Assembly: GCF_009649845.1 (NCBI RefSeq)
Contig: NZ_WJIE01000006.1
Location: 496,001 to 560,000 of the forward strand
Direction: 5' to 3'
Origin: Polyangium spumosum
GTDB lineage: Bacteria; Myxococcota_A; Polyangia; Polyangiales; Polyangiaceae
DNA: 64,000 nt
Of the stretch, positions 15,218 through 57,326 are shown in pieces. The first letter of the stretch is position 1. Every line of letters begins with the position of its first letter. The translations under genes and the position numbers were made by a program. The notes under the pieces are model-generated. The model did no database searches, was not told where the DNA came from, and saw only the letters and a list, made by a program, of their open reading frames with translations.

Positions 15218-15218
15218 C

Positions 15219-17237: not shown

Positions 17238-17244
17238 GCGCGCC

Positions 17245-19233: not shown

Positions 19234-19627
19234 GCGTGCAGGCCGCGTCACGAGGGTGGCGCACGATTCTGTCGGGCTGCGCTGCGGGCCGTCCGGAGCG
19301 CTCTTCGTTTTGGGCGTTCCGGGGCCGTGCGGGCTGGCTTGCCTCACACGTGACGAGCCCCGAACGTGCGATGGGCAAACGGGTCGTGTTCGTTTAGGAT
19401 TCCCTGGACTCTATGCCCGACGCCCTCCCTGCTTCGATGGATCTTCAGCGGGGATCCGAGGGCCACGTGCGCCGAGGCCCTCGCCGCGCGGAGGCTCGCC
19501 TCCGTGGCCCCCGCCGGGCGCTGCCTTCGCGGGCGGCGAGAAACACGCGCCACGGGCTACCTGGTGCGTCGGTTCGCCTCCTCGGGGTATATGCTCCTTC
19601 CAGGAGACGAGGTCGGGTTACGCGTCG
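19234..19627. promoter_or_regulatory. 394-bp gap upstream of the PKS genes, with two perfect inverted repeats
   Basis: I find no convincing gene in this gap. It must hold the promoter of the PKS transcript if there is one, but I cannot fix -35/-10 boxes. Two perfect hairpins are close together: GAGGGCC (19458-19464) pairing with GGCCCTC (19476-19482), and CGGAGGC (19489-19495) pairing with GCCTCCG (19498-19504) around a 2-nt loop. They could be a terminator for the HTTM genes or a leader structure. An AGGAG at 19602-19606 is too far from the chosen ATG (19628); GAGG at 19608-19611 is closer but still wide. Confidence 0.4.
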
Positions 19628-41500: not shown

Positions 41501-44500
41501 ATGGTTGTCCTCGGCGGACGCCGCCTCCCTGCCGGACATCTGCTACACGGCGAGCGTACGCCGCACGCATCACGAGCATCGGCTGGTGGCCGAGGGGGCG
41601 ACCAAGGAGGAGCTCGTGGCGCTCCTGTCCTCGTGCGCGCAGGGAGAATGGCCCGCCGGCGTGTCGCGTGGACAGGTCGTCTCGGGCCGGCCGCGCCCCA
41701 AGGTCGTCTTCGTTTTTCCTGGGCAGGGATCACAATGGCTCGGGATGGGGCGAGGGCTCCTGGCCGAGGAGCCGGCGTTCGCGGCCGCGCTTCGAGCTTG
41801 CAGCGAGGCCATCGAGCGAGAGGCGGGGTTCTCGGTGCTCGACGAGCTCGCGGCGGACGAGGCGCGTTCGCGGCTCGGCGAGATCGACGTTGTGCAGCCC
41901 GTGCTCTTCGCGATCGAGGTGGCGCTCGCGTCGCTCTGGCGCTCGTGGGGCGTGGAGCCCGATTGTGTCGTTGGTCATAGCATGGGCGAGGTCGCCGCGG
42001 CGCACGTGGCGGGGATGTTGAGCCTCGCGGATGGGGCCAAGGTGATCTGCCGACGCAGCCGTCTGCTCCGGCGCATCAGCGGCAATGGGTCGATGGGGCT
42101 CGTCGAGCTGACGATGGCCGAAGCGGAGCAGGCCATCGCGGGCTTCGAAAACCGCCTCGGCGTCGCCGTGAGTAATGGCCCGCGATCCACGGTGCTCTCG
42201 GGGGACCCGATCGCGCTGGAGGAGGTGCTCGGCGGGCTGGAAAAGCGAGGTGTGTTCTGCCGTCGCGTCAGGGTGGACGTGGCGTCGCATGGCCCCCAGG
42301 TGGATCCATTGCGGGATGATTTGCTCTCCGCGACGGCGGACGTTCGTTCGTCGCCGGGCGCGATCGCGATGCGCTCGACGGTGACGGGTGCGCCGCTCCG
42401 CGGCGACGAGCTCTCGGCTGCGTACTGGTGGAAGAACCTCCGGGAGCCGGTGCGATTCTCGCAGGTGGTGCAGGCGCTGATGGTGGAGGGCCACGACGTC
42501 TTCGTGGAGATGAGCCCGCACCCCATCCTCTTGCCCTCGATCGAGGAGAACCTCGAGGAGGCGAAGGTCGAGGGCGTCGCGGTTGCGTCGACGAGGCGGC
42601 ACGCGGACGAGCGTCGATCGATGCTGGCCGCGCTGGGCACACTTCATACGCGCGGATACGACGTCGCGTGGAGCAAGCTTTACCCGGAGGGCGGGCGTGT
42701 CGTCTCTCTGCCCGCGTACGCCTGGCAGCGTGAGCGATACGCGATCGACGTCGACACGCGGAGGACGCGGGTGATCGAGGCGTCAGGGAGCCACCCGCTC
42801 CTCGGGGTGGGGCTCACCCCTGCGGCGCAGCCGGAGACGCACCTGTGGGAGCGACGGGTGAGCGTGAAGGCGTTCCCGTACCTCGCAGATCACCGCGTGC
42901 AAGGCGAGGTGGTTTTTCCGGGCGCGGGATACGTGGAGCTCGGCCTCGCGGCGGCAGCTCGAATCTACGGCCCGGGCGAGGCCCGCATCGAGGAGATATC
43001 GTTCGATCGGATGCTCGCGTTACCGGAGGGCCAGGAGCGGCTCGTGCAAGTATCGCTGGTGGAGGAGGGCGGAGGCCGTGCCTCCGTGACGATCTCGAGC
43101 CGCGAGGGAGACACGAAGGAATGGGTGCGGCACGCGTCGGGCGTGCTGCGCGTGATGGGGATGCAGCCGGTGCCTGCGGGCGGGCGGATCGAGGACGTGG
43201 AGGCCCGGTGCCCGGAGGTCATCGAGGGCGCATTGCATTACGAGCAGATGGAGGCGCGAGGTTTGTCGTATGGGGAGCGCTTCCAGGGCATTGCGCGGAT
43301 CGTGATCGGGAAGGACGAGGCCGTGGCTCGCGTGCGCCTGCCGGAGGCGATCGGCTCTGGCGGCAGCGACTACCTGGTGCACCCGGCCCTCCTGGATGCG
43401 TGTTTCCAGGTGGGCGGGGTGGCATTGCGATCGACGTGTGGCGAAGGGACGCTCGTCCCGGTTGCCGTGACCGGATTGCAGGTGTTCGAAAGGCCTGGCC
43501 GTGAGGTCTGGGTGCATGGTCGGGCTGTGAAATCCGAGAGGAGCGGGGAGCCCGCGGCGACCCTGACGGTGCACGACGAGGCTGGCCGGGTCCTGATCGA
43601 GATCGGCGAGCTTCGCGTGCAGAGGTTGGCGGATGCCGAAGCGGCGCAGAGGGATGTTTTCGCCAGCTGTGTATACGAAGTTTCCTGGGAGAGGATGGAC
43701 GTCGGGGAGCGACGCGAGGCGAAGGGGGACACCTCCGCGTGGCTCGTGCTCGTCGACGAGCGGGGGCTGGGCGCGACGCTGGCCGATCGGCTCCGAGCGG
43801 CTGGGGCGACGTGCGTGGAGGTGGCGTCGGGTGAGGGGTATGTGCGCTTCGGCCAGGGCCGGTACTGCATAGACGTGACGAACCCTTCCCACTGGGACGA
43901 CGTCCTGAGGGAAGCCTTCGGGAAGCGCGGGTGCCGAGGGGTCGTTCATTGTGGAGCCCTCGACGGGTCGCGGTGGAGCGAGACGAGCGAGGCGACGATC
44001 GCGCCGGATCTTCGGCGCGGCATCACGAGCGCGATGTGCGCGGCCCAGGCGCTGCTGCGTCAGGGCTGGCGGGACGCACCGCGGCTGTATCTCTTGACCC
44101 GCGGCGCGCAGGCCGTGGGGGATGCGCCCGAGCCTTTGTCGATTACGCAATCGACGCTGTGGGGCTTCGGGCGGGCCCTCGCGATGGAGCAGCCCGACCT
44201 CGAGTGTATCCGGATCGACCTTTCGCTGCAGGCGAGCTCGGAGGAGCCGGAGCTCGTGCTACGCGAGATCCTGTCGGGCGGTGACGAGGATCAAATCGCG
44301 TTCAGGCCGGGAGGAAGGTACGTGGCGCGGCTCGTGCGAGCGCAGCTCGGGGGTGATGGCGGCGCGCCCGAGCGGCTGGAGCCCGTGGCGGGCCGGGCCT
44401 ATCGGCTGGAGATTCACGAGCCGGGCGTGCTCGAGCGGCTCTCGTTGCGGCCGATGGAGCGCAGGCCTCCGGGGCCCGGGGAGGTGGAAATCGAGGTCGA

Positions 44501-46643
44501 GGCGGCAGGGCTGAATTTCCTCGACGTGATGAAGGCCATGGGGATTTATCCTGGAATGGATCCGAACGCCATCGAGCTCGGAGGCGAGTGCGCCGGGAGG
44601 GTCGTGGCGCTCGGGGAGGGCGTCGCGGGCGTCCACGTGGGCCAGGAGGTGATCGTGTCCGCCGCGTCGAGCCTCGCGAGCCACGTGACGACGCGGGTCG
44701 AATTCGTCAAGCCGAAATCCAAGGGGATGTCGTTCGAGCAGGCCGCGACGATCCCGGCGGTCTTCATGACCGTATACTGGGCCCTCCATCACGTAGGGCG
44801 GCTTCAGCGCGGCGAGCGAGTCCTGATCCACGCCGCGACGGGCGGGACGGGGCTCGCGGCCATCCAGTATGCCCGGGCGGTGGGCGCGGAGATCTTCGCG
44901 ACGGCCGGGAGCGAGGAGAAACGTGCGTATTTGCGCTCGCTGGGGATCGAGCACGTGATGGATTCGCGTTCGCTCGCGTTCGCGGACGAGGTGCTCGCGT
45001 GTACGTCCGGGCGCGGCGTGGACGTGGTGCTGAACTCGCTGACGGGCGACGGGCTTCGCCGGAGCCTCGAGGTGCTGGCGCCTTATGGTCGGTTCCTGGA
45101 CATCAGCAAGAAGGACATCTACGAGAACAGCCGGATGGGCATGTTGCCTTTCCGAAAGAGCCTCTCGTACACCGCGATCGACCTCGCCGGCATGGCGGAG
45201 CAGCGGCCCGAGCAATACGGCGCGCTGCTGGGAGAGGTCCTGGAGCGCTTCGAGGATGGCACATTCGAGCCCGAACCCGTGACCGTATTCCCTGCGAGCG
45301 CCGCGGACGCGGCGTTCCGGCTGATGGCGCAGGCCAGACACAAAGGGAAGATCGCGGTGCGAATGAAGGACCAAGACGCGCGGCTCGTGTCGTCGTCCGA
45401 GCGGAGGGGCGCGCACGTGCGAGAGGACGGCACGTACCTCGTCACGGGCGGGCTCGGCGGCTTGGGTTTGTCCTTGGCGAAGTGGTTGATCGCGCAGGGG
45501 GCGCGGCACCTGGCGCTCATGGGGCGAGGCGCGCCGAACGAGGCGGCGCGGGAGGTGATGCGGAGACTCACGGAGGCCGGCGCGCAGGTCCGCGCGTTGC
45601 GCGGCGATGTATCGAGGCGGGCCGACGTGGATGCCGTGATCGCGGAGATCGAGCGCTCGATGCCGCCGCTCCGTGGTGTCGTGCACGCGGCAGGGCTCCT
45701 CGACGACGCCACGCTGCCGAACCTCGACGAAGGGAAGCTGCTCCGGCCCATGGAGCCCAAGGTGTTCGGGGGGTGGAACCTGCACGATGCGACGCGAGGA
45801 TGCTCGCTGGATTTCTTCGTCACGTACTCCTCCGCGTCGGCCTTGCTGGGTTCGCCTGGACAATCGAATTATGCGGCGGCGAACGCGTTTCTCGACGCGC
45901 TCTGCCAGTCGCGCGCGTCGGAGGGTTTGCCCGCGACGAGTATCCAGTGGGGCGCGTTCTCGGAGGTGGGGCTCGCGGCGGCGTCCGACGTCCGCGGCGC
46001 ACGCGTCGCCTCGCGCGGGAGCGACAGCTTCAACCCCGAAGAGGGGAACCTCCTGTTCGGAAGGCTCCTCGAGCGACCTCGGCCGGTCGTGGGCCTCGTG
46101 CGGTTCGACGTGCGTCAGTGGGTGGAGTTTTATCCGCAAATGGCAGGAGCCCCTTACCTCGCCCAGCTCATGCGCGAGCGGGCAGACGGGCAGGGCGCTG
46201 CCGAGGCGAGCGGGCTCCGCGAAGCGCTCGAGCGCGCGGCGCCGGCGGAGAGAGCGAGCCTCCTGGAGTCGCATCTGATCGAGCAGCTGGCGCGCGTGCT
46301 GCGGCTCGAGCCTGGGCGGATCGACAAGGCCGCGCCCTTCGCGAGCCTCGGCATGGATTCTTTGATGAGCCTGGAGCTGCGGAATCGCCTGGAGGCGAGC
46401 CTCGGGCTCAAGCTCTCCGCGGCGCTGCTCTTCACGTACGCGACGACGAAGGCGCTCGCGGCGCACCTCGGCGATCGGATGTTCCCGACGCACCCGCCCG
46501 ACGCTGAAGCCCCGAGCGCCCCTTCCGCGTCGATCGACGATGGCGCGGGCATTGCTGACGAAATCGACGGTGATCTCGGCGTCGAGGAGGACGAATCGGC
46601 GCTCGTCGACAAACTCGAGGCCTTCGAGGAGTACCTGGGATGA
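35529..46643 (+). CDS. PKS3: bimodular type I polyketide synthase, modules 3 and 4
   Basis: A 3704-residue protein coupled to PKS2 by a GTGA overlap. Module 3 is KS (Cys201, His336), AT (GHSVGE Ser650, YAFH His753; malonyl-type), KR and ACP (Ser1469). Its KR has SGKLSGRG from residue 1171 where TGGLGGLG is needed for NADPH, no LDD (VPDVDGE instead), and Ser for the catalytic Asn, although Tyr1314 remains; I read it as inactive, leaving a beta-keto group. Module 4 is KS (Cys1703, His1838), AT (GHSMGE Ser2151, VASH His2254; methylmalonyl-type), DH with the canonical HRVQGEVVFP (His2455, Asp2623), ER (Tyr3007), KR (LLDD, Tyr3448) and ACP (Ser3611), fully reducing. The N-terminal coil (YRSRLRDAVGIINELKAKV) differs from those of PKS2, 4 and 5, as expected if it pairs with the odd PKS2 tail. 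Confidence 0.93.
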   Translation: MSNPLDEYRSRLRDAVGIINELKAKVAHAERAAVEPIAVIGLGCRFPGGGAGPEAFWRNLEHGVDAIQRIPAERWPEDAIPGERSEVLWAGLLDDVAGFDATFFGISPREAETLDPQQRMLLEVTWGALEDASVHPERLAGSRTGVFVGMCGADYHELVVDARFGRYDAYCTTGNLHSTAAGRIAYVLGLQGPCISVDTACSSSLVAIAQACQSLRAGDSDMALAGGVNVLLSPRVMAMLAETQALSPDGRCKTLDARANGFVRGEGCGIVALKRLSDAQRDGDRIRAVIRGWAVNQDGRSTGLTTPNVLSQQVMLRQALERARLSPLDIGYIEMHGTGTSLGDPIEFEALRDVLGVQRADGSSIVLGAVKTNIGHLEGAAGVAGFIKAVLAFEHERIPKNLHFRRLNPRISLDEVPFSIPTEHVSWPRGGKPRRAGVSSFGLSGTNAHVILEEPPAEPARVPSPEASAYLLPLSARSPEALTALACCYGEWLSRESEVSLHDIVYTASARRAHHEHRIAIVGKTRAEMAERLSSFAAGDTSSVASRAAAAGLGRPRPVYVFSGQGSQWAGMGRQLLAEQPVFRAAVEEIDALLSRHARFSLVEEMSAHEERSRLGETEIAQPAIFAIQVGLARLLGSWGVTPGALIGHSVGEVAAAHLSGALSLEEAVRLVALRARIMQKATGHGRMAWASLPPEDAAATIAGRETRVSIAAVNDPVSVVLSGETAALEAKLGELAARGVSTRPLRVKYAFHSPQMEPLAQELAEGLGRVDARVNSVPMISTVTGARIAGELLDARYWQRNVRETVDLLRAVETALAEGYNLFVELGPHPVLVANLEQCVAARGADATVLSTLRRQGEELRSILETLGGLYVDGVSMDWGAIHPVGGRIAALPPYPWQRKRYWIEAAEHHVPRGERPRESLDDFVYEVQWRRKDRTPSAKTLAPADGAWLLLVDRAGTGDALAHLLHGYGIPCVRVEPGAPYERLDATSFRIDPARRDDYRRLLEEAFPRGVRCRGIVHMFGLDTTPWNEATEEALASDQHRTILSPLFLAEAVQRKGWRDNPRLCWVTRGAQAVAGSGLASPSQAPLWGLARTLLLEHPELEIARIDLDAAAEGEDARALLEELGAADGEDQVAIRSDGRYVARLARTSFHAAPARAFEVRPDAAYLLSGKLSGRGLATARWMVAQGARHVALAPSRALAEDERGEIRAMEEAGASVLLFPADVSRRADVEALLAEIERLLPPLRGVVHVPDVDGESAPTLELDEERLRRTASKRMLGAWHLHRAMSGRPLDFFVLFSSASAVLGLAGRAGYTASSAFLDAVARRGHDAGLPAMSVQWGAFSDEGGEARQSTLDGLTQAQGVEALAQLLARPRAEVAVMRFAGRQMLETFPHLAQSAFYSELVTAGGAAERRPEGAARFRQTLEAAVGAERLVLLVAHVREQLGHVLRMDPATIDPRAPFQTLGVDSLMSVEVRNRLEASLGSKLPATLLFTYANVEQLAESVLVKIAASKPSVAGAARVVSTTSMAPATPLAAEEPIALVGMACRFPGGSTDPDAYWRALLAGVDGVREVSPARWPAGTLPEDKLGAGHAALLDDIYDFDAGFFGISPREAETLDPQQRLLLEVTWEAVEDAGQLPQALVGSRTGVFVGCTTLDYQRMVLTTPEYLDAYGVTGTVMATAAGRLSYVFGLQGPAVALDTACSSSLVAIHLGCQSLREGESDLVLAGGVNALLAWEPMVAMAAMRALSPDGRCKTLDARANGYVRGEGCGILVLKRLSDARRDGDRVLALIRGSAVNQDGRSTGLTTPNVLAQQALLRQALGAARLSPADVGYVEMHGTGTPLGDPIEVDALREVFGEARPDGSSCVLGAVKTNIGHLEGAAGVAGLIKVVQVLRHGVVPKNLHFRALNPRIELQGTPFVVPTENLPWLPGGKPRRAGVSSFGISGTNAHVLLEEAPPEATNGRATSSHLLPLSARSVEALKALTRSHAEWLSSADAASLPDICYTASVRRTHHEHRLVAEGATKEELVALLSSCAQGEWPAGVSRGQVVSGRPRPKVVFVFPGQGSQWLGMGRGLLAEEPAFAAALRACSEAIEREAGFSVLDELAADEARSRLGEIDVVQPVLFAIEVALASLWRSWGVEPDCVVGHSMGEVAAAHVAGMLSLADGAKVICRRSRLLRRISGNGSMGLVELTMAEAEQAIAGFENRLGVAVSNGPRSTVLSGDPIALEEVLGGLEKRGVFCRRVRVDVASHGPQVDPLRDDLLSATADVRSSPGAIAMRSTVTGAPLRGDELSAAYWWKNLREPVRFSQVVQALMVEGHDVFVEMSPHPILLPSIEENLEEAKVEGVAVASTRRHADERRSMLAALGTLHTRGYDVAWSKLYPEGGRVVSLPAYAWQRERYAIDVDTRRTRVIEASGSHPLLGVGLTPAAQPETHLWERRVSVKAFPYLADHRVQGEVVFPGAGYVELGLAAAARIYGPGEARIEEISFDRMLALPEGQERLVQVSLVEEGGGRASVTISSREGDTKEWVRHASGVLRVMGMQPVPAGGRIEDVEARCPEVIEGALHYEQMEARGLSYGERFQGIARIVIGKDEAVARVRLPEAIGSGGSDYLVHPALLDACFQVGGVALRSTCGEGTLVPVAVTGLQVFERPGREVWVHGRAVKSERSGEPAATLTVHDEAGRVLIEIGELRVQRLADAEAAQRDVFASCVYEVSWERMDVGERREAKGDTSAWLVLVDERGLGATLADRLRAAGATCVEVASGEGYVRFGQGRYCIDVTNPSHWDDVLREAFGKRGCRGVVHCGALDGSRWSETSEATIAPDLRRGITSAMCAAQALLRQGWRDAPRLYLLTRGAQAVGDAPEPLSITQSTLWGFGRALAMEQPDLECIRIDLSLQASSEEPELVLREILSGGDEDQIAFRPGGRYVARLVRAQLGGDGGAPERLEPVAGRAYRLEIHEPGVLERLSLRPMERRPPGPGEVEIEVEAAGLNFLDVMKAMGIYPGMDPNAIELGGECAGRVVALGEGVAGVHVGQEVIVSAASSLASHVTTRVEFVKPKSKGMSFEQAATIPAVFMTVYWALHHVGRLQRGERVLIHAATGGTGLAAIQYARAVGAEIFATAGSEEKRAYLRSLGIEHVMDSRSLAFADEVLACTSGRGVDVVLNSLTGDGLRRSLEVLAPYGRFLDISKKDIYENSRMGMLPFRKSLSYTAIDLAGMAEQRPEQYGALLGEVLERFEDGTFEPEPVTVFPASAADAAFRLMAQARHKGKIAVRMKDQDARLVSSSERRGAHVREDGTYLVTGGLGGLGLSLAKWLIAQGARHLALMGRGAPNEAAREVMRRLTEAGAQVRALRGDVSRRADVDAVIAEIERSMPPLRGVVHAAGLLDDATLPNLDEGKLLRPMEPKVFGGWNLHDATRGCSLDFFVTYSSASALLGSPGQSNYAAANAFLDALCQSRASEGLPATSIQWGAFSEVGLAAASDVRGARVASRGSDSFNPEEGNLLFGRLLERPRPVVGLVRFDVRQWVEFYPQMAGAPYLAQLMRERADGQGAAEASGLREALERAAPAERASLLESHLIEQLARVLRLEPGRIDKAAPFASLGMDSLMSLELRNRLEASLGLKLSAALLFTYATTKALAAHLGDRMFPTHPPDAEAPSAPSASIDDGAGIADEIDGDLGVEEDESALVDKLEAFEEYLG

Positions 46644-49600
46644 GCACCTTCCGTGGCTCCCCGCCGCGGCGCGAGCAGGCCGGGAGCGAGGGTACGCCGC
46701 TGCAACGCGCGATCGCCGCGCTCGAGAAGATGAAGGCGCGCATCGAGGCGATGGAGCGCGCCGCGAACGAGCCGATCGCGATCATCGGCGTCGGCTGCCG
46801 CTTCCCCGGCGAAGGCGAGGGGGACGAGGCATTCTGGCGCACGCTCGACGGCGGGGTCGATGCCGTACGGGAAATCCCGGCCGAGCGATGGCCCGCGGAG
46901 GCGATTCCAGGCCAGAGACCCGAGGCGCGGTGGGCGGCGCTCCTCGACGACGTGAAGGGGTTCGATGCGGCCTTCTTCGGTGTCTCGCCGCGCGAGGCGG
47001 AGACGCTCGATCCACAGCAGAGAATGCTGCTCGAGGTGGCCTGGTGGGCGCTCGAGGACGCGGGGCTCGCGCCGAGCTCCCTCTTGGGGAGCCGGACCGG
47101 GGTCTTCATCGGCGCGTGTTCCGTGGATTATCAGCACATCGTCTCGCAGGCGCGAGCCGGTCGATACGACGCCTATTGCGCCACCGGAACGGCCTTGAAC
47201 ACGCTGGCGGGTCGGGTGTCCTTCGTCCTGGGGCTCCAGGGCCCCGCCGTATCCATGGATACGGCTTGCTCCTCGTCGCTCGTCGCGGTGGCACAAGCTT
47301 GTCAGTCCCTGCGAATGGGGGACAGCGATCTCGTGCTGGCGGGCGGCGTGAACGCCATTCTCTCGCCGATGACCATGGCGATGCTGGTCGAGACGCAAGC
47401 CATGTCCCCGGATGGGCGCTGCAAGGCGCTGGACTCTCGCGCCAACGGGTTCGTCCGCGGCGAGGGTTGTGGTGTGGTGGTGCTGAAGCGCCTGTCGGAC
47501 GCCCTCCGCGACGGTGACCGCGTTCGCGCGCTGATCCGAGGCTGGTCCGTCAATCAAGACGGCCGATCCACCGGGCTGACCACGCCCAACGTGCTCTCCC
47601 AGCAGGTGATGCTCCGGCAGGCGCTGGAGCGGGCGCACCTCTCCCCGTCCGACATCGGGTACATCGAGATGCACGGGACCGGGACGTCGCTCGGCGATCC
47701 CATCGAAGCGGAGGCGCTGCGGGAGGTGTTCGGAGAGCCGCGGGCCGACGGCTCGTCGTGCGTGCTCGGCGCCGTGAAGAGCAACATCGGGCACCTGGAG
47801 GGGGCCGCGGGGATCGCTGGCCTGATCAAGATCGTGCTCGCCATGGAGCACCAGCGAATCCCGAAGAACCTCCATTTCCGTCGGCTGAATCCGCGCATCG
47901 ACCTGCAGGGCTCTCCGCTGGTCGTTCCGACCGAGCCCGTGCCCTGGCCGCGCGGCCACGAGCCGCGCCGAGCGGGGGTGAGCTCGTTTGGTTTCAGCGG
48001 AACGAACGCCCACGTGATCCTGGAGGAGGGCCCCGCGGAGGAGAAGGGGCCCATGAGAGAGGGGTCCGCATATTTGTTGCCGCTATCGGCGAAGAGCGGG
48101 GCCGCGCTCGCGACGCTCGCGGGTGCATATGCGGAGCGCCTGTCGAGCGAGGATGGCGATGGGCTCGCGGACATAGCCTACACGGCGAGCGTGCGCCGAA
48201 TGTACCACGAGCACCGGCTGGCGGTGGTGAGATCGTCGCGGGAGGAGCTCTCGGAAGCGCTTTCGCGGTATGCACGAGGCGAGGAAGCGGCAGGCGTGGC
48301 GCGAGGGAGGGTGGACGCCAAGGGCCCGCCGCGCGTGGTGTACGTCTTCTCCGGGCAGGGCTCGCAATGGGCGGGGATGGGGGCGAAGCTCTTCGCGGAG
48401 GAGCCTGTGTACCGGGCGAAGCTCGAGGCGTGCGATTCGATCCTGCGGAGGTACGTCCCGTGGTCGCTGCTGGAGGAGCTCGGGGCGCCCGAGGATCGGT
48501 CCCGGCTCGGCGAGACGGAGATCGTGCAACCGGCGATGGTCGCGCTCCAGGGCTCGCTCGTCGAGCTCTTGCGCTCGTGGGGCGTCGAGCCGAGCGCCGT
48601 GATTGGCCACAGCGTCGGGGAGATCGCGGCCGCGCACGTCGCTGGAGCGCTCCCGCTCGAGGAGGCTCTCCGCCTCGCGGTCCTGCGCGGGCGAATCATG
48701 CAGAAGGCGACGGGCCTCGGGAAAATGGCGTGGGTGGCGCTCTCCGCCGACCGCGCGGCGCGCCTGCTGGAAGGGAAGGAGGACCTGGTATCGATCGCCG
48801 CGGTGAACGATCCGGACTCCGTCGTCTTGTCTGGACAATCCTCCGCCATCGACGACCTCCTGGACGAGCTCGCGCAACGGCGCGTGCCCACGAGGCCCCT
48901 GCGCGTGAATTATGCATTTCACAGTCCACAGATGGAGACGCTCGCGCGCGAGCTGAGAGCTGCGCTCGGGAGCCTCGACGCGAGGCCGACCACGCTCCCG
49001 ATGTACAGCACCGTGACGGGCGAGGCGATCCGGGGGGAAGCCCTCGACGCAGCCTATTGGGGGAGAAATGTTCGAGCGACGGTCGACCTCGCCCGCGCCG
49101 TGCTCGCAGTCCTCGCGGCGGGGGAGGCGCACACGCTCCTCGAAATTGGACCCCACCCGGTGCTCCTCGCGAATTTGCAGCAATGCGCGGCCGCGTCGGG
49201 CGCCGACGTCCGCGCGCTGGGGACGCTGCGCCGGAACACGCCCGAGCGGCGCGCGATGCTGGAGGCGCTGGGAGCGCTGTACGCCCAGGGCGTCGATGTG
49301 AACTTCCGGGGCGTGAACGTCGGTGGCGGGCGCGTCGTCTCGCTTCCAGCGTACCCCTGGCAAAGAGAACGTTTCTGGATCGAATCCGATTTTCGGGCGC
49401 AGGCCAAGGCCGATGTGTCCTCCGACCCGCTGGATGAATGCGTGTTCACCGTGCAATGGCGGCGAAAGCAACACGCGTCCGCGACGGGGCGGCTCGGGTC
49501 TGTCGAGGGCGCGTGGCTCCTGCTCGTGGACCGCGGCGGCGTGGGAAAGAGGCTCGCCGGGCTCTTGCGGGAGCAGGGGGGCGATTGCGTGTTCGTGGAG

Positions 49601-51370
49601 GCGGGCACCCGCTACGAGCGCGTCGACGAGGGGTCGTGGCGGATCGACCCGTCGAAGCCGGAACACCACGAGCGATTGCTGGCGGACGTCTTCGGGGGCA
49701 AGGAGCGGTGTCGAGGCGTCGTGCATCTCTTCGGCCTGGACGCGGCGCCGTGGGAAGAAACGACGAACGAGACACTCGCGCGCGACCTCGAGCAGAGCGT
49801 GGGCGCGGCGGTCTGGCTCTCGCGGGCCATCGTGCGCCGCGATTGGCGCGACAACCCGCGCATGTACTGGGTGACCCGCGGGGCCCAGGCGGTGGAGGCG
49901 AAAGGGAGCTCGGCATCACCCATCCAGGCGTCGCTCTGGGGGCTCGTCCGTTCGCTCGTGCTCGAGCATCCCCGATTGCAGAGCGCCTGTGTCGACCTGG
50001 AGCCGGCAGGAGCGACCGATGAAGCGCGTGACCTCCTCGACGAGCTCCTCCAGGAGGACGGAGAGGACCAGGTCGCGCTACGCCAAAAGCATCGTCACGT
50101 GGCGAGGCTCGTTCGAGGCCACGTCGCCGCGGTGGACGCGCGCGAGCACGAGTTTGTCGCGGACGCCACGTATCTCGTGACGGGTGGCCTCGGTGGGCTC
50201 GGGCTGTCGCTGGCCCCGTGGATGGTAGAACGAGGCGCCCGGCACCTGGTCCTCGTCGGCCGACGCGCGCCCACGGAGGACGCTCGCGAGCGGATCCGAG
50301 CCATGGAATCGGCGGGCGCGGAGGTGCGCGTCGAGCAGGTGGACGTGTCTCGCAGGTCGGAGGTCGAGGCGCTGATGGCGTCGCTCTCGGCGACGATGCC
50401 GAAGCTACGTGGGGTGGTGCACGCTGCCGCCGTCCTCGCGGATCGCACGCTCCTCGACACGACCCCGGAGGATCTCCGTCGTGTGTTCGAGCCGAAGGCG
50501 TGGGGCGCGTGGAACCTGCACGCGGCCACGCGAGCCGCCGACCTCGATTTCTTCGTCACCTATTCCTCCGCGGCGAGCCTGCTCGGGTCACCCGGACAGA
50601 TGAATTACGCCGCGGCGAATGCCTTCCTCGACGGGCTCTGCGCTGCGCGGGCGTCCGAGGGCCTCTCGGCGATGAGTATCCAGTGGGGTCCCTTCGCCGA
50701 GGTGGGCCTCGCAGCAGCGATGGTTATCCGGGGCAAACGAATCGCGTCCCGTGGCGGGGCGAGTCTCACGCCGAACGAGGGCCTCCGCGCGCTCGCGCGG
50801 CTCCTCGTGCATCCTCGGCCCGTGGTGGCCGTGGCGCGGATGGACGTCCAGCAATGGCTCGAAGCCAACCCCCACATGGCTCGTTCGCCATTCTTCTCGG
50901 ACCTTCCGCGTCGGCCCGCTTCGCCCGAGCTCGTGAAAGGGGGAGGCGATTTCCTCGATTCATTGAGGAGCGCACCGCCCGAGGCGCGCCTCGGGCAGCT
51001 CGAGGAGCACGTCCTTGCGCGGGTGGGTCAGGTGTTGCAGCTCGATCCCTCGCGGATCGACCGAGATGCGCCTTTCTCCAGCGTCGGAATGGATTCGCTC
51101 ATGGCCCTCGAGCTACGAAATCGCCTCGAGCCCGACCTCGGGTTGAAGCTCGCGCCGACGCTGCTTTTTGCGTACCCCACCCCCGCGGCGCTGGTCGAGC
51201 ACTTGCTCGATAGGCTCGGCCTCGCGGGGGAGGCGCTGCCCTCCGAGCATGGGCCGCCGATGATCAGCGCAGGCGTGGAGGCCGCCGCGGACCCGGATTC
51301 GCCGCAGGAAGGCGACGTGGAGGCGCGGCTCGAAGCAAAACTCGCGTCCCTCGAGAAGTATTTCGATTGA
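46640..51370 (+). CDS. PKS4: type I polyketide synthase, module 5 (KS-AT-KR-ACP)
   Basis: A 1576-residue single module coupled to PKS3 by an ATGA overlap. Docking coil (LQRAIAALEKMKARIEAMER), KS (Cys210, His345, GHLEGAAG), AT with GHSVGE (Ser658) and YAFH (His761), indicating malonyl-CoA, KR with TGGLGGLG, VLAD in the LDD position (second Asp kept, B-type) and Tyr1323, and ACP with Ser1486. It should add a C2 unit and reduce the ketone to a hydroxyl. There is no thioesterase. The C-terminal helix (RLEAKLASLEKYF) resembles those of PKS1 and PKS3, so chain transfer to another protein is expected. The only remaining candidate is PKS5, whose gene converges on this one with 7 bp between stops. Confidence 0.93.
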   Translation: MSTFRGSPPRREQAGSEGTPLQRAIAALEKMKARIEAMERAANEPIAIIGVGCRFPGEGEGDEAFWRTLDGGVDAVREIPAERWPAEAIPGQRPEARWAALLDDVKGFDAAFFGVSPREAETLDPQQRMLLEVAWWALEDAGLAPSSLLGSRTGVFIGACSVDYQHIVSQARAGRYDAYCATGTALNTLAGRVSFVLGLQGPAVSMDTACSSSLVAVAQACQSLRMGDSDLVLAGGVNAILSPMTMAMLVETQAMSPDGRCKALDSRANGFVRGEGCGVVVLKRLSDALRDGDRVRALIRGWSVNQDGRSTGLTTPNVLSQQVMLRQALERAHLSPSDIGYIEMHGTGTSLGDPIEAEALREVFGEPRADGSSCVLGAVKSNIGHLEGAAGIAGLIKIVLAMEHQRIPKNLHFRRLNPRIDLQGSPLVVPTEPVPWPRGHEPRRAGVSSFGFSGTNAHVILEEGPAEEKGPMREGSAYLLPLSAKSGAALATLAGAYAERLSSEDGDGLADIAYTASVRRMYHEHRLAVVRSSREELSEALSRYARGEEAAGVARGRVDAKGPPRVVYVFSGQGSQWAGMGAKLFAEEPVYRAKLEACDSILRRYVPWSLLEELGAPEDRSRLGETEIVQPAMVALQGSLVELLRSWGVEPSAVIGHSVGEIAAAHVAGALPLEEALRLAVLRGRIMQKATGLGKMAWVALSADRAARLLEGKEDLVSIAAVNDPDSVVLSGQSSAIDDLLDELAQRRVPTRPLRVNYAFHSPQMETLARELRAALGSLDARPTTLPMYSTVTGEAIRGEALDAAYWGRNVRATVDLARAVLAVLAAGEAHTLLEIGPHPVLLANLQQCAAASGADVRALGTLRRNTPERRAMLEALGALYAQGVDVNFRGVNVGGGRVVSLPAYPWQRERFWIESDFRAQAKADVSSDPLDECVFTVQWRRKQHASATGRLGSVEGAWLLLVDRGGVGKRLAGLLREQGGDCVFVEAGTRYERVDEGSWRIDPSKPEHHERLLADVFGGKERCRGVVHLFGLDAAPWEETTNETLARDLEQSVGAAVWLSRAIVRRDWRDNPRMYWVTRGAQAVEAKGSSASPIQASLWGLVRSLVLEHPRLQSACVDLEPAGATDEARDLLDELLQEDGEDQVALRQKHRHVARLVRGHVAAVDAREHEFVADATYLVTGGLGGLGLSLAPWMVERGARHLVLVGRRAPTEDARERIRAMESAGAEVRVEQVDVSRRSEVEALMASLSATMPKLRGVVHAAAVLADRTLLDTTPEDLRRVFEPKAWGAWNLHAATRAADLDFFVTYSSAASLLGSPGQMNYAAANAFLDGLCAARASEGLSAMSIQWGPFAEVGLAAAMVIRGKRIASRGGASLTPNEGLRALARLLVHPRPVVAVARMDVQQWLEANPHMARSPFFSDLPRRPASPELVKGGGDFLDSLRSAPPEARLGQLEEHVLARVGQVLQLDPSRIDRDAPFSSVGMDSLMALELRNRLEPDLGLKLAPTLLFAYPTPAALVEHLLDRLGLAGEALPSEHGPPMISAGVEAAADPDSPQEGDVEARLEAKLASLEKYFD

Positions 51371-51377
51371 GGTGGGG

Positions 51378-54300
51378 TCAGCCGGGCTCGTCCTCGTCGA
51401 GCGCCAGCCGGAGCATGCGGGCGAACTCCACCACGGCGGGCTCGAAGAGGGCCTCGAAGTGGTTCCCCGGCATGTCCAGGATCCGCACAGGGCGAGCGCA
51501 GAGCGCCCCCCAGCCGAAGGTGGGATCGTCGGGCGAGAGTCCTGCGACGGCGATGTGATCGACCGTGTGCCGCGCGCGCAGCAGCGTGATCGCCCCGCTG
51601 TAAGGCGACGGCTCGTACGATTGCATGGCGCTGAAGTGAGCCCGGTACATCCGCAGCTTTTCCCTGGACTCACCCTGCTCGGGCGGCAACATCAAGATCT
51701 CGGCGAGGATCGACGCGAGCTCCGCGACCTGTTCCTCGTGGCCGAGCCGGCAGAACGCGTCCTCGTCGTCGATGGGCATCGAAAAGAGCCGAGCCACGCG
51801 GAGCAGGACGGTCCCTGGGTCGTCCGATTGCCGTAACACCGGCATGTCCACGAGAACGAGCTTTTCGACCAGCTCCCCGCTGCGCGTCAACATCTGGGCC
51901 ATCTCGAAGGCCACCATGGCGCCAAAGGAGTACCCGCCGAGCCGATGAGGGCCGCGGGGCCGCACTTTGCGTATCTCCTGGACGAAGCGGCTCGCGATGA
52001 GCTCCACGCGATCCGCCACGGGTTCGTCGGTATCTACGCCGGGGACGTTGAAGCTATAGAATGGGTGAACCTTCCCGAAATGGTGGACGAGCGACTGGAA
52101 GACGAGGCCGGTGCCGTTCAGCGGAGGAGCGAAGAAGAAGGGGGGTTTCGAATCCTCACGGACGAGCTCCACGAGCAGGCCCTGCCGGCCCGGCGGGCCG
52201 CTCGGATCCGCGCCCTCGCCGCCCGGGGGGTCGTCCTTGCGCAGCGTGCCGAGGACACGGCGCGTGATCGATTCGATCGTGGGGTGATGGAGCAACGTGG
52301 TCACGGGCAGGGTGACGTGCAGCGCATGGCCGACGCTGGTGAGGAGCTGGACGCCCATGATCGAATCCAGGCCGAGCGAGGACAGCTCCGCGCGGTCGCT
52401 CTGCGGCAGCTCTTCGAGGCGAGCGCCGAGGACCCGCGCGACCTCGCGGCGCACGACGATCTCGACGAGCCGCCGCGCCTGCTCGGGCTCTGCGGCGGCG
52501 ATGCGCTTGCTCAAAGCGGCGGCGCCCGAGCTCGCGCCGCGGACGGCGACGAGCCCTTCGAGCAAGGGCCGCCCCATGTGCGCGCGATGGGATTGCTGGA
52601 AGAGCTCCCAGTCCACCCAGGCGGCGATCGCAGCAGGCGTCCCCTCCGACGCCATTCGCTCCGCGGCCTGCCACGAAAGCGACGGAGGCATACCTTGAAG
52701 CCCCGCGGCCAGGATGTCCTGCTGGAGCTCCGTGCGACCGGGCCGCTCTTCGTGGGGGAACGCGATGTACGCGGTTGTCGCGGGCAGCCCGCGGCGCCGA
52801 CGATGACGCGAGATACCATCGAGGAACGCGGCCGCGACGCCGTCGGATCCGAGCCCCTCCCAGCCGAGCGCCGAGGCAGCCGAGGAAAAGACGATGAAAT
52901 AATCCAGCGCGACGTCCCTCGTGAGCGCATGCAGGGCCCAGTGCAGGAGCGTTTTCGTGCGAATCGTCTCGTGCAGGGCCTGCGTGGCGTCCCGGCTCGT
53001 GAGCCGGCACGGAGTGCTGTCTTTGGCGCCCGACGCATGGACGATCCCCCCGATGGGGAGAGGGGCGCGAGAGAATGCCAGGCGCAGCGAATCCGTGTCC
53101 GCCGCGTCGGCGTGCGCGACGATGATCTCCACGCCTTGGGATACGAAGCATCGAGACAACCTGCCGAGCTCATCAGGAGCTTGGGGGTCCGCGCCGGTCG
53201 TCGGCTCGATCCACAAGAACGAACGCGCGCCGAGCTCGACGAGCCTGCGCATGGCCTCTTGGCCGAGAGCGCTTTGCGCGCCTGTCAAGACATGGGTGCG
53301 GTCCGAACGAACGTCGAGGGGTCGAGCGACGGGGATCGGGGCCCGCGCGAGCCGCGCCACGTAGCGCTTCTCGGCGCGCAGAGCGACCTGATCCTCGGCG
53401 CTCGACGACAGGAGCGCCTGTGCCAAGCGCGTGATCTCCGCTCCGTCGGTGTCCGGCCCGGGATCGAGGTCGATCGAGCCGCCCCACATGTCCGGACGCT
53501 CCAGCGACAAGGCATTTCCGATCCCGCAAAGACCCGCCTGGGCGAGCGCCACGTCCGTATCCAGGACGGGTCGTGCTCCGCGCGTGACGAGCCAGAGCTT
53601 CGGCACCTGTACCTGCGACGCGAGCCGGTCGATGACACGAAGCGCGACGGTCGTATTTCGACACGCCTCACGCTCGAACGTCGACGGCGTGAGTGCGTCG
53701 TTGGAGGTCGCGTCGAGCGCGCCCAGGTACACCACGCCCGTGAAGGGCCCGGAGACACCAAGCACCATTTCGAGTGGCAGGACTCGTTCCTCCAGATCCG
53801 CGGCGGGCACGATCGCGGTCATGTCGCCCCCGACGTCGAGCTGCTCGGCGAGGGCGCGGCCCACGCCTCCAGCGTCCGCCACGATGAGCCATCGTCGCTT
53901 CGTCGCAGGGCGCGGCGCGGACGGTGGTGCGTCTCGCCAAACCTGTTCGACGAAGGCATGCTCGAAGGGGTCTTTGCCCGCGGCGCGGAGCGCGGACGCG
54001 GGGTCCTGCGCGCGAAGGTCGATCCGTCGCGCGGACGCGGTCACGCACCCCTCGCCGTCGACGAGCTCGGCGCTCACGCGGCCGGACCACGCGTCGTTGG
54101 TCACCCAGTTCAGCCGTAACCACGCGCGGCCATCCGCCTCGGCCGGGCGTACGGAGACACCCTCGACGGAGTCGATCATCCAGGCTCTGCCGTGCGCGGC
54201 GGGGTGGGTGATCGACGCAATGGCAGCCGCGGCACGCACGAAGGAGCTCGCGGCGCGGTTCCTCGTGATCGAGACGCGCGCGAGCGTCTCCTCGGGCTTG

Positions 54301-57300
54301 CGCCAGAGCTGGTCGATGTGCAGGGCCTCGGGGCCGAGGCCGAGCGCCTCGAGCCGCGTCTCCCAGAGGGTCGAAGGCACGCTTTGCCGTCGACCGGGCC
54401 GCATGCTGGGAGGCGCCACGTCGTCGTCCTCGTCCGTGGACGGTTTCGGACGAATGGCGCCGCTCGCCACCCGCTTCCACGCGCGTCCGTCGGACGCCTC
54501 GAAGAAGATGCCCATGGACGCCGCGCTCGTGCCCTCCGGCGTCACGATGACTTGCATCGTGGTTGTCTCGCCCTCGGCGATGATCGGAGGATCGCCGAGG
54601 GCGAGGCCGATCTCCCAGGGACCGTCGCCGAAGATTTCCCGGCCCGCGGCGATCGCGACCTCCACGAGCCCTCCTGATGAGAGCGAGGACGTCTCCACGA
54701 GGCGCTGCACGCCGAGCCCGCCGCGCCGCGCGTCGTCGAATGTCTTCTCCCATGCGCGTACGTCGGGCTGATCCGCGCGGGGGGCGAGGGGATGACCGAG
54801 GAGGGGATGGCCGTCGGGGTGGGCCTCCACCGGCGTCTCGATGGTTGGCGAGCCAAACCAATAACGTTCTCGTTGAAATGGATACGTGGGCAGCCCGACG
54901 CGGCGATAGGGGTGCGGCGCGTCGAGCTGATCCCACCGCGGCTCGATCCCCCGCACGTAGAGGCTGGCAAGGCAATCGAGGAGCGCGCGCGCGGGCGGCG
55001 CGTCGCCGTGCAAGGACGAAAGGAGCTCCGGGGCCGCGTTCGCGCGCGGCTGTGCGTCCTGGGCCGCGCGCTGGCGGCCAATCCGCACGAGCGCGACGAA
55101 CGCCGGGGACGAGAGCGCCCGGAGGCCCGCCTCGGGATCCGGCGCGTCGTGAACCTGCCGCTGCCAGTACGCGGTCGTGGCCAGGGAGGAGACGGTGCAA
55201 TCGCCGCCCAGGCTCGGGAGGAAGGTGCGCCGCGGAGAGGCGAACCTGATCTTCGAAAGCGCGGCGGCGAGCTCGCCGGTATCGCCGCCGTCGACGAGCC
55301 GAGCGCGAGCCATGGCGAGCGCGAGCGCGTCGTCGTACTCGAGCGCGCCGGCGGCCCACGCAGCGACGCACTCACCCGTGCCCACGCCGAGCACGCCGGA
55401 AGGCTCGATGCCCCACGCGCGAAATGCCTCGACCAGGGCGCATTGCAGGACGAAGAGCGCGAGCTCGCTGTCGACGGCGCTGCCCGGGGAATACGCGCCA
55501 TCGTCGCCCTCCAGCAATCTCGAGACGCTACGACCGAGCCGCGCGCGAACGGCGTCGTCACCGCGGCGCAGCGCTTCCTTCAGCGCCGGCGGGGCTTGCT
55601 CGATCGAGGGAATGGATCCCACCGCGTCGGCGGGGCTCCCCGTGAACGAGAAGCCGATGCGCCTCCGAGCCGATGCCTTCTCGAGGCGCCCCGTGAGGTA
55701 CCCGCTCCGGACATTTTTCACGAAATCGCTCAGGCGGCCGAGCGCCTCGGAATGGCTCGAAACGACCGCAGCCCAGCGATGCTCGAAATGCGAGCGTCCA
55801 GCGCCCAGGGTATGACAGACGTCCCCGAGGTGCTGCTCGGGGTGCGCCGCGAGGTGGCGGAGCATCTGCTCGGCCCGATCCCGTAGGCCCTCGGCCGTTT
55901 TCCCCGAGAGCACGAAGACGTGCGCCGGTCGCTCTGGCTTCCCTGCTTCGCGAGAGGCCGGGGGTGGCTCCTCGAGGATGACGTGCGCGTTCGCCCCGCT
56001 GAGCCCCGTCGCGCTCACGCCCGCCATTCTCGACGATGGGCCCGGCGCCCATTCTACCTCGCGGGTCGGAAGGACGAAGGGCGTGCCCTCGATCGAGGCG
56101 TGGGGGTTCAAGGCTTGGAAGTGGAGGTTCCTCGGCACGAGCCCGTGGTTGAGCACGAGCGCGGCCTTGATGAGGGACGCCATGCCGGAGGCCGCCTCGG
56201 TGTGGCCGATGTTCGTCTTGATCGAGCCGAGCACGCACGCCGAGCCGTCCTCGCGCGGCTTCCCGAGCGCCTCCTTCAGCGCGTCGAGCTCGATGGGATC
56301 ACCCATGGGAGAGCCATTGCTGGCGACCTCGACGTACCCGATACGCTCGGGCGGCACGCGCGCATCCTCGAGCGCGGCCTGGATCACGGCGGCTTGCGCC
56401 TGGACGTTCGGGGCCGCCAGGCTCGTCGAGCGGCCGTTTTGATTGATCGCCGAGCCGCGCACGAGGGCCAAGATCCTGTCTCCGCGCCGCTTTGCATCCG
56501 AGAGCCGCGAGAGCACGACGACGCCCGCCCCCTCCGAGCGGACGAACCCGTTGCCGCTTGCGTCGAACGTCCGGCAATGCCCGTCCGGGGACAAGATCTG
56601 GAGCGACACGAGCTGGCGCGAGACCTCGGCGGAGAGGATGACGTTCGCGCCGCCCACGATGGCCATGTCGCACTCGCCCCGGCGCAGGCTCTGGCAGGCC
56701 AGGTGCAGCGCGACGAGGGACGAAGAGCACGCGGTATTGATGCTCATGCACGGGCCGCGGAGCCCGAGCACGTGCGAGATCCTGCTCGCGGCGAAGGAGA
56801 CGGCATTTCCCGTGGGAATATAGGGGCGGGGTTCGACTGCCGTCGCCGTGATGCGCTGAATGTAATCGTGCGACGTGATCCCCATGAATACGGCCGTCTT
56901 GCTGCCGAACAGCCTTTCGGGCGTGATGCCCGCGTTCTCGAGGGCCTGCCAGGTCACCTCGAGCAGCATGCGGTGCTGGGGATCGGCGTCGGCAGCCTCC
57001 TGAGGGCCGAGGCCGAAGAACGACGCGTCGAACGCGTCGATGTCCTCGATTTGCCCAGCCCAGCGCTCCACGGGGAAGGGGGACGACGTTTTATGGCCCC
57101 AGCGCTCCTCCGGGATCTTCGTCACGACGTCGATTCCCGAGAGGAGTATCCGCCAGAGCGCCTCGGGGCTCTCCGCGCCGCCGGGGAATCGACAGCCCAT
57201 CCCCACGATCGCGAGGGGCTCGGTGCGGGAGCGCTCCACGGCGGCGAGCTTGGACTCCAGCTTCTCGATGGCCAGGAGGGCACGTTCGAGCGTGGAGCCG

Positions 57301-57326
57301 CCGGATGGGTGCCGCGTCGTCGTCAT
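51378..57326 (-). CDS. PKS5: terminal type I PKS with decayed module and intact thioesterase (KS*-AT0-DH0-KR0-ACP-TE)
   Basis: A 1982-residue protein on the strand opposite the other PKS genes. Docking coil (LERALLAIEKLESKLAAVER), then KS (about 37-460) with TACSSS Cys200 and the second His (GHTEAASG) kept, but VEVASNGSPMGDP replacing VEAHGTGTPLGDP, so the first catalytic His is Ala335. AT (about 555-830) reads GVGTGE instead of GHSxGE (Val648, Gly649). DH (about 840-1115) has Gln874 for His and Arg1031 for Asp. KR (about 1117-1580) has TGAQSALG and Asp1495/Ala1499 for Tyr/Asn. ACP Ser1655 (GLDSIM) is intact. TE (about 1725-1982) has GYSFG with Ser1800 and GNHFE with His1956. I infer a non-extending docking and release protein. 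The uninterrupted 6-kb frame argues that it is maintained by selection, not a pseudogene. Confidence 0.9.
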   Translation of the reverse strand: MTTTRHPSGGSTLERALLAIEKLESKLAAVERSRTEPLAIVGMGCRFPGGAESPEALWRILLSGIDVVTKIPEERWGHKTSSPFPVERWAGQIEDIDAFDASFFGLGPQEAADADPQHRMLLEVTWQALENAGITPERLFGSKTAVFMGITSHDYIQRITATAVEPRPYIPTGNAVSFAASRISHVLGLRGPCMSINTACSSSLVALHLACQSLRRGECDMAIVGGANVILSAEVSRQLVSLQILSPDGHCRTFDASGNGFVRSEGAGVVVLSRLSDAKRRGDRILALVRGSAINQNGRSTSLAAPNVQAQAAVIQAALEDARVPPERIGYVEVASNGSPMGDPIELDALKEALGKPREDGSACVLGSIKTNIGHTEAASGMASLIKAALVLNHGLVPRNLHFQALNPHASIEGTPFVLPTREVEWAPGPSSRMAGVSATGLSGANAHVILEEPPPASREAGKPERPAHVFVLSGKTAEGLRDRAEQMLRHLAAHPEQHLGDVCHTLGAGRSHFEHRWAAVVSSHSEALGRLSDFVKNVRSGYLTGRLEKASARRRIGFSFTGSPADAVGSIPSIEQAPPALKEALRRGDDAVRARLGRSVSRLLEGDDGAYSPGSAVDSELALFVLQCALVEAFRAWGIEPSGVLGVGTGECVAAWAAGALEYDDALALAMARARLVDGGDTGELAAALSKIRFASPRRTFLPSLGGDCTVSSLATTAYWQRQVHDAPDPEAGLRALSSPAFVALVRIGRQRAAQDAQPRANAAPELLSSLHGDAPPARALLDCLASLYVRGIEPRWDQLDAPHPYRRVGLPTYPFQRERYWFGSPTIETPVEAHPDGHPLLGHPLAPRADQPDVRAWEKTFDDARRGGLGVQRLVETSSLSSGGLVEVAIAAGREIFGDGPWEIGLALGDPPIIAEGETTTMQVIVTPEGTSAASMGIFFEASDGRAWKRVASGAIRPKPSTDEDDDVAPPSMRPGRRQSVPSTLWETRLEALGLGPEALHIDQLWRKPEETLARVSITRNRAASSFVRAAAAIASITHPAAHGRAWMIDSVEGVSVRPAEADGRAWLRLNWVTNDAWSGRVSAELVDGEGCVTASARRIDLRAQDPASALRAAGKDPFEHAFVEQVWRDAPPSAPRPATKRRWLIVADAGGVGRALAEQLDVGGDMTAIVPAADLEERVLPLEMVLGVSGPFTGVVYLGALDATSNDALTPSTFEREACRNTTVALRVIDRLASQVQVPKLWLVTRGARPVLDTDVALAQAGLCGIGNALSLERPDMWGGSIDLDPGPDTDGAEITRLAQALLSSSAEDQVALRAEKRYVARLARAPIPVARPLDVRSDRTHVLTGAQSALGQEAMRRLVELGARSFLWIEPTTGADPQAPDELGRLSRCFVSQGVEIIVAHADAADTDSLRLAFSRAPLPIGGIVHASGAKDSTPCRLTSRDATQALHETIRTKTLLHWALHALTRDVALDYFIVFSSAASALGWEGLGSDGVAAAFLDGISRHRRRRGLPATTAYIAFPHEERPGRTELQQDILAAGLQGMPPSLSWQAAERMASEGTPAAIAAWVDWELFQQSHRAHMGRPLLEGLVAVRGASSGAAALSKRIAAAEPEQARRLVEIVVRREVARVLGARLEELPQSDRAELSSLGLDSIMGVQLLTSVGHALHVTLPVTTLLHHPTIESITRRVLGTLRKDDPPGGEGADPSGPPGRQGLLVELVREDSKPPFFFAPPLNGTGLVFQSLVHHFGKVHPFYSFNVPGVDTDEPVADRVELIASRFVQEIRKVRPRGPHRLGGYSFGAMVAFEMAQMLTRSGELVEKLVLVDMPVLRQSDDPGTVLLRVARLFSMPIDDEDAFCRLGHEEQVAELASILAEILMLPPEQGESREKLRMYRAHFSAMQSYEPSPYSGAITLLRARHTVDHIAVAGLSPDDPTFGWGALCARPVRILDMPGNHFEALFEPAVVEFARMLRLALDEDEPG

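Follow-up and report, generated by a model that had tools for sequence, protein, structure and literature searches.

A terminal polyketide synthase module of Polyangium with dead AT, DH and KR domains and a constrained ketosynthase, proposed as a non-elongating release adaptor

The stretch of DNA analysed here (the window) comprises 64,000 nucleotides of a contig of Polyangium spumosum (Polyangiaceae) and carries five polyketide synthase (PKS) proteins, the last of which, PKS5, is the subject of this study. PKS1 to PKS4 lie on the plus strand, and PKS5 converges on PKS4 from the minus strand as an intact frame of 1982 codons (57326→51378), with 7 bases between the two gene ends (PKS4 ends at 51370; Table 1). 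Pfam recognised in PKS5 a ketosynthase (KS), a partial acyltransferase (AT), a weak dehydratase (DH), a ketoreductase (KR), an acyl carrier protein (ACP) and a thioesterase (TE), here written KS0-AT0-DH0-KR0-ACP-TE, where 0 marks a domain read as non-elongating or dead. AT motifs are present in PKS1 to PKS4, which makes this a cis-AT rather than a trans-AT line. Among the five PKS proteins of the window a thioesterase was found by Pfam only in PKS5, so the chain should end there, and the TE motif GYSFG is confined to PKS5 or its fusion (see below) among 30 PKS proteins from six loci of the genus and G023, a genome from another genus of the family. The original prediction, made from the sequence alone, described PKS5 as a complete but catalytically gutted terminal module kept in a 5.9-kb frame in front of a working TE. 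The frame was confirmed, with its strand added here; all the residues named were correct (Ala335 in the KS, Val648-Gly649 in the AT, Gln874 and Arg1031 in the DH, Asp1495 and Ala1499 in the KR, Ser1655 in the ACP, Ser1800 and His1956 in the TE), and the broken nucleotide (glycine) loop of the KR is real.

To establish how widely this domain state is shared, PKS5 was searched for in 39 related genomes and in six genomes of the genus (G000 to G005, G000 being the window's own). The locus was found in all six genomes of the genus (matches at E ≤ 1e-200), with a whole PKS5 in five of them (G000, G001, G002, G004 and G005); the orthologues are 38-57% identical to the protein of the window, and in G003 the match starts only at residue 685. 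In G001, G002, G004 and G005 the genes for PKS1 to PKS4 stand in a row, with PKS5 convergent behind PKS4 and the same genes on the far side (G005 was compared without its upstream flank). The catalytic Ser of the AT is Gly in all five full-length proteins, Pfam covers only positions 23-121 of the 319 of the AT profile in the window protein, and alignment against six working ATs placed a deletion of 71-79 amino acids, including the catalytic His, at nearly the same position in all five. None of them has the AT Ser-His dyad (0/5), which is intact in the G003 fusion, whose AT derives from PKS4. An AT lacking Ser, His and 71-79 residues leaves the module unable to load its own extender, and the module can no longer be called complete. 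In the DH, the His is lost in five of six proteins (G002 has His at that column inside an otherwise lost motif) and the Asp has become Arg in five of six and His in G002. The Tyr and Asn of the KR are lost in all six and its glycine loop is broken, the second glycine being kept only in G002. The ACP Ser and the TE Ser-Asp-His are invariant in all six. PKS5 is a terminal module of a cis-AT line in which AT, DH and KR are all dead, and the loss of these three functions is common to the genus rather than one recent private event. The catalytic losses predicted for four domains therefore hold genus-wide for the AT, DH and KR, but not for the KS, whose His loss alone is private: it is missing in one of the five (Ala335, window species) and kept in the other four full-length orthologues.

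Cys200, Lys370 and His375 are retained in 5/5 full-length PKS5 KSs. In place of the HGTGT of an ordinary KS, four species have HSNGS and the window species has ASNGS (xSNGS in 5/5), and the Cys-His-His of an ordinary module is accordingly incomplete in the window PKS5 and complete in four of the five. The Ala335 codon, GCC against CAC or CAT, represents a two-base change private to the window species. The 27 ordinary KSs of the six loci (the two KSs of G023 were left out) served to define columns with a constancy of 95% or more; of these columns, 19 were changed in at least three PKS5 KSs, eleven of them in the full set of five, and at these eleven none of the 27 ordinary KSs carries the PKS5 residues. 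Six of the eleven have moved to one identical residue (D297N, G302S, G336S, T337N, T339S and A380S) and two further columns to like residues (A244I/V and F440T/S); several of the changed positions belong to what we take to be the His motif and the gating loop. A DNA-pattern search for HSNGS matched two of 377 genomes, both of the same genus; the pattern misses Ser encoded by TCN, the sampled G000 and G003 are without the motif, and G001 and G002 lay outside the sample. It is conceivable, though we put it forward tentatively, that this KS is a rebuilt rather than a decayed condensing enzyme, in which D297N, G302S, G336S, T337N, T339S, A380S and F440T/S would define a KS class so far confined to the genus and dedicated to hand-over or off-loading beside a normal TE, the HGTGT His being dispensable in the window species. 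If so, PKS5 would be a cis-AT release adaptor distinct from CalA3 (discussed below), with the whole module as a scaffold around a repurposed KS and the ACP-TE.

The distribution of the KS His also bears on a hidden extension, in which the PKS5 ACP would be loaded in trans (e.g., by a tandem AT of PKS1/PKS2, or FabD), the KS would condense and the TE would release a beta-keto chain. Such an extension would suit the His kept in four of five orthologues, the tandem ATs found in PKS1 of all six loci and the G023 relative in the other genus, which pairs a dead AT with nearby AT-like genes. The Ala in place of His in the window species and the altered HGTGT and gating Phe in 5/5 speak against it, as does the lack of any free-standing AT by Pfam in the 17 window proteins scanned (which did not include every small frame), and we consider it very unlikely.

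Codon models allowed the constraint on each domain to be estimated. The original prediction treated the intact frame as evidence that the dead domains are retained; as ACP and TE lie downstream, any frameshift would remove them, and codon models are the better test. The GY94 model (F3x4, own code) was fitted by maximum likelihood (ML) to PKS5 from four species (G000, G001, G004 and G005), and the ML values of omega (dN/dS) replaced those of NG86 (0.25-0.96) because saturation inflates the latter. Omega was 0.058 for the docking helix (residues 1-35), 0.089 for the KS, 0.095 for the KS-AT linker, 0.158 for AT0, 0.109 for DH0, 0.183 and 0.224 for the structural and catalytic parts of the KR, 0.128 for the ACP and 0.079 for the TE (which has no working counterpart in these lines for comparison), and omega = 1 was rejected in every domain (2dlnL 61-656). 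In the same species PKS1 gave 0.078 for the KS, 0.048 and 0.035 for the ATs (AT2 fitted from several starts), 0.063 for the DH, 0.059 and 0.068 for the KRs and 0.023 for the ACP, and PKS4 (three species) gave 0.059 for the KS, 0.066 for the AT, 0.039 and 0.054 for the KR and 0.125 for the ACP. The PKS5 KS is about as constrained as working KSs (0.089 vs 0.059-0.078). On the window branch its omega was 0.089 (P = 0.99 vs the other branches), so that the private loss of the His came without measurable relaxation, which argues that the KS still has work not needing that residue. The relaxed selection named in advance as the outcome that would speak against a retained role was not observed (omega 0.09-0.22 in KS, AT0, DH0 and KR0). 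It is most improbable that the dead domains are a neutral relic, decaying and kept only as the upstream part of the ACP-TE frame: they are looser than working domains, the AT has lost a block and the window species has lost one more catalytic residue, but the rejection of neutrality in every domain largely refutes this explanation, and the predicted retention of the KR fold and the derived KS changes common to 5/5 also count against it.

Divergence between species is concentrated in the middle of the locus. Protein identity is 86-92% for PKS1 against 38-63% among the five full PKS5 proteins (HTTM2 was compared without G005 and a 343-aa protein without G001), and synonymous divergence (dS, by NG86) is 0.08-0.40 for PKS1 and two flanking genes against 0.56-1.67 for PKS5 domains. 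In the five species pairs profiled, PKS2 to PKS5 showed 65-75% nucleotide identity or no alignment, between flanks of 81-96%. This hypervariable island (~27700-57300, PKS2-PKS5) varies between species in module number and in the KR of PKS4, while the release protein stays. PKS1 to PKS4 together have five elongating KSs in the window; the number is also five in G003, with its fusion, and four in species such as G001. Relaxed selection as the whole cause of the low PKS5 identity was set aside, since dS is raised too and PKS2 to PKS5 diverge between similar flanks. From these comparisons, alleles in the middle of the locus are older than the species and were probably exchanged by recombination. 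The G002 protein, which is only 38-40% identical to the other four full-length proteins although its flanks are 90-96% identical to those of G004, fits such an exchange of divergent alleles.

In G003 a single 2059-aa protein joins the N-terminus, KS and AT of PKS4 (catalytic residues intact) in one direction to the DH0-KR0-ACP-TE of PKS5; this protein has no KS0-AT0. In a tree of 34 KSs the five PKS5 KSs formed one group (support 100/100), as did the six PKS5-type KRs in a tree of 31 KRs (100/99); with working KRs as outgroup, G002 was outermost and G003 nested inside the PKS5 group (99/96). The KS0-AT0 form is thus most simply read from the trees as ancestral and the fusion as derived, with KS0-AT0 lost once PKS4 and PKS5 had become one protein, as a bridge between them would be. 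On the G003 branch omega of the dead DH0 and KR0 remained below 1 (2dlnL vs omega = 1: 37.7, 13.7 and 31.0). In wider searches, a profile of the dead DH-KR recovered one of 235 genomes of the phylum, the window's own, at E ≤ 1e-90 (at most four candidates per genome scored), and a scan of genome contigs gave 27 loci at 25-43% identity (best segment). In G023 a module (G023:C3:651399-660275; L062, L063) has the KS motif VCSSSL, a dead-looking AT (GHGAGEY) and DH and KR motifs that look functional; the next two genes have N-termini resembling free-standing ATs.

On balance we think it probable, though well short of certain, that PKS5 serves a cis-AT line as its dedicated, non-elongating terminal module, with a KS that relays the PKS4 chain to the PKS5 ACP for the TE. 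In this mechanism, of which we infer the docking partner, the acyl transfer, the absence of extension, the type of release and the product, the N-terminal helix of PKS5 would dock to the C-terminus of PKS4, and the KS (Cys200, Lys370, His375) would accept the chain of the PKS4 ACP, binding it to Cys200 as a thioester. The PKS5 ACP would carry no extender because the AT is truncated and dead, and for want of that extender the KS would transfer the chain, without lengthening it, to the thiol carried by Ser1655 of the ACP. DH0 and KR0 would perform no chemistry and hold the scaffold together, and the TE would then hydrolyse or cyclise the chain. By eye, the PKS4 C-termini of G000, G001, G004 and G005 have a like helix at their end, G002 less so, and the donor terminus of G003 differs. 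A bridging role predicts just such a fusion as that of G003, in which PKS4 and PKS5 form a single chain and KS0-AT0 is missing. The retained, non-extending release adaptor of the original prediction is therefore the best fit to a locus present in 6/6 genomes with omega well below 1; the transfer and release that it proposed would follow the steps above.

The claim that such an adaptor would be a new type of chain-release machine does not hold. Gutted cis-AT release modules and transacylating KS0 domains are known, from CalA3 (PMC10006239) and from trans-AT lines (PMC8456789, PMC10952193), as far as the excerpts of these papers go. According to the excerpts of PMC10006239, CalA3 of the calcimycin line is a cis-AT module that serves solely to release the chain, its AT, DH and KR being dead; the KS makes a C-N bond with Cys-His-His, His332 being needed for amidation, and purification failed for the truncated forms KS and KS-LD-AT. 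PKS5 resembles it in being cis-AT, in its dead AT (Ser to Gly), DH (His to Gln) and KR, in its N-terminal docking domain and retained KS Cys, and presumably in releasing a chain without extending it. In contrast, in the same excerpts CalA3 has no ACP, the calcimycin cluster no TE, and the CalA3 AT keeps both subdomains, whereas PKS5 has ACP (Ser1655) and TE and its AT has lost 71-79 aa; Cys-His-His is kept in CalA3, and the window PKS5 has Ala335 (His in 4/5 orthologues). By numbering rather than alignment, CalA3 Ala336 and Leu437 would correspond to PKS5 Ser339 and Thr440, with equal Cys-to-His spacing, so that the second Thr of HGTGT and the gating Phe would be replaced in both proteins.

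This parallel raises the possibility of CalA3-like catalysis, in which the rebuilt KS would itself off-load the chain (by hydrolysis or by ester or amide formation) or edit it late, while AT0-DH0-KR0 would act as scaffold and the TE would finish or proof-read. The fixed changes that surround the His motif and gating loop of the KS in 5/5, the low KS omega, the residue spacing and the precedent of a like pattern of dead domains (PMC10006239, excerpts) all favour it. However, the ACP and TE of PKS5 have all their active residues, and CalA3 either lacks these domains or manages without them; the window species has Ala where CalA3 needs His332 for amidation (PMC10006239, excerpts); and there is no sequence kinship, PKS5 being not especially close to CalA3, which was 15th among the solved structures listed. 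We regard such catalysis as unlikely. An AlphaFold2 model of DH0-KR0 from six sequences had a mean pLDDT of 68.9, and its predicted KR part superposed on the KR of DEBS module 1 with Z 29.4 (3.8 A over 397 residues). The top three Foldseek matches of this model were CalA3 KS-AT-DH-KR chains, but CalA3 was not among its 50 VIA-align 2 matches listed, which were headed by ordinary KRs, and to our knowledge few solved structures have DH-KR without ER (enoylreductase). Kinship with CalA3 is therefore not claimed from the Foldseek ranking. The model of KS0-AT0 (five sequences) had a mean pLDDT of 45.9, too poor to use for the KS.

Relays by non-condensing KSs have been described elsewhere. In hangtaimycin HtmA1 KS3, a KS0 of a type A dehydrating bimodule, C155A abolishes the product and the relay is experimentally established (PMC8456789, excerpts); as proposed for PKS5, a non-condensing KS passes the chain to the next ACP, and the Cys needed in KS3 is kept in PKS5, but KS3 is internal to a trans-AT bimodule with a working DH, whereas PKS5 is terminal and cis-AT with dead DH and KR. 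For mupirocin, the first half-step of transfer was shown in vitro with the MmpA KS0 (PMC10952193, excerpts), an N-terminal KS0 with a helix that accepts the chain of an upstream ACP located on a different protein, as PKS5 may do; as described there it is trans-AT, mid-line, tied to alpha-hydroxylation and without a TE, unlike the terminal cis-AT PKS5. In pikromycin biosynthesis the terminal module PikAIV can release a chain not extended there (PMC9113145, excerpts), again as proposed for PKS5, but PikAIV is a working module skipped for only part of the product, and the domains of PKS5 itself do not allow extension. For this skipping it has been discussed that the PikAIII chain may be delivered directly to the PikAIV TE (PMC9113145, excerpts), and in PKS5 a comparable bypass of the KS would have the PKS4 ACP deliver the chain straight to the TE or ACP, leaving KS0-KR0 as a dimeric docking platform only. 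This would make all the dead domains scaffold, but Cys200, Lys370 and His375 in 5/5 and a KS omega of 0.089, similar to that of working KSs, exceed the needs of a platform, and we consider the bypass quite unlikely.

Several observations weigh against the relay that we favour. With the His kept in 4/5 orthologues, the KS of those four could still condense if the ACP were loaded in trans. Bridging alone fails to explain why G003 keeps DH0-KR0 behind an intact KS-AT, although a scaffold role, as argued for CalA3, would cover it. AT0, DH0 and KR0 are ~2-5 times looser than working domains, yet far from neutral; omega of AT0 is higher on the window branch (0.26 vs 0.14), not significantly (P = 0.13); and dS is near saturation in the data behind the ML omegas, which also take no account of recombination within domains.

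The features of PKS5 and its line are collected in Table 1. PKS1 (19256-27793) has an ACP ahead of the KS and two AT domains, both with GHS; the true start probably lies downstream of the listed GTG, since the frames of congeners begin nearer the ACP. PKS2 (27790-35532) has two ATs in a row, the first with GHGVGE (Ser to Gly, probably dead) and the second with GHSMGE; the pair is also found in G005, and a single GHSVGE in G001, G002, G003 and G004. Upstream of PKS1 (14120-19233) lie a tryptophan 2,3-dioxygenase-like gene, a gene for a protein with a DCC1-like thiol-disulfide oxidoreductase domain and one for an HTTM protein, with counterparts of all three at the same place in G001, G002 and G004.

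Table 1. Features of PKS5 and of the PKS line in the window
Feature	Position	Strand	Basis
PKS5 (KS0-AT0-DH0-KR0-ACP-TE), 1982 aa	51378..57326	-	intact frame, Pfam domains
N-terminal helix, residues 11-36, likely docking helix	57219..57296	-	sequence, omega; docking role putative
KS0, residues 36-460: Cys200, Lys370, His375 kept; His335 to Ala; gating Phe to Thr440	55947..57221	-	Pfam, alignment, omega
Ala335 codon (GCC); His in other four full-length orthologues	56322..56324	-	alignment
KS-AT linker, residues 461-545	55692..55946	-	Pfam CurL-like/RhiE-like linker
AT0, residues 546-835: Ser to Gly649, 73-aa deletion removing catalytic His	54822..55691	-	Pfam, alignment, omega
DH0, residues 838-1112: His to Gln874, Asp to Arg1031	53991..54815	-	alignment, omega, model
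KR structural subdomain, residues 1120-1330	53337..53969	-	omega, model
KR0 catalytic-type subdomain, residues 1331-1562: Tyr to Asp1495, Asn to Ala1499, glycine loop lost	52641..53336	-	alignment, omega
ACP, residues 1625-1690, Ser1655 kept	52257..52454	-	Pfam, alignment
Thioesterase, residues 1729-1968, Ser1800-Asp1827-His1956 kept	51423..52142	-	Pfam, alignment, omega
PKS4 (KS-AT-KR-ACP), proposed donor to PKS5	46640..51370	+	Pfam, motifs
PKS4 C-terminal helix, proposed PKS5 docking partner	51314..51367	+	similar C-termini by eye; docking putative
PKS1, PKS2, PKS3, upstream part of line, four elongating KS	19256..46643	+	Pfam, motifs

Among the open-licence PMC papers listed by our literature searches we recognised no gutted cis-AT terminal module besides CalA3, nor the combination of genus-wide conservation, no working AT, a cis-AT line, ACP-TE and a rebuilt KS. 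The proven KS0 relays cited above belong to trans-AT lines, and PKS5 seems to close a cis-AT line. The six species offer a ready comparison: five have a separate adaptor, the KS lacking its His in one of these, and one has a fusion that dispenses with KS0-AT0. If the relay is real, a product prediction from module count would overshoot by one unit here, and PKS5 would be a naturally occurring component for joining a line to a TE with no carbon added, usable in module swapping.

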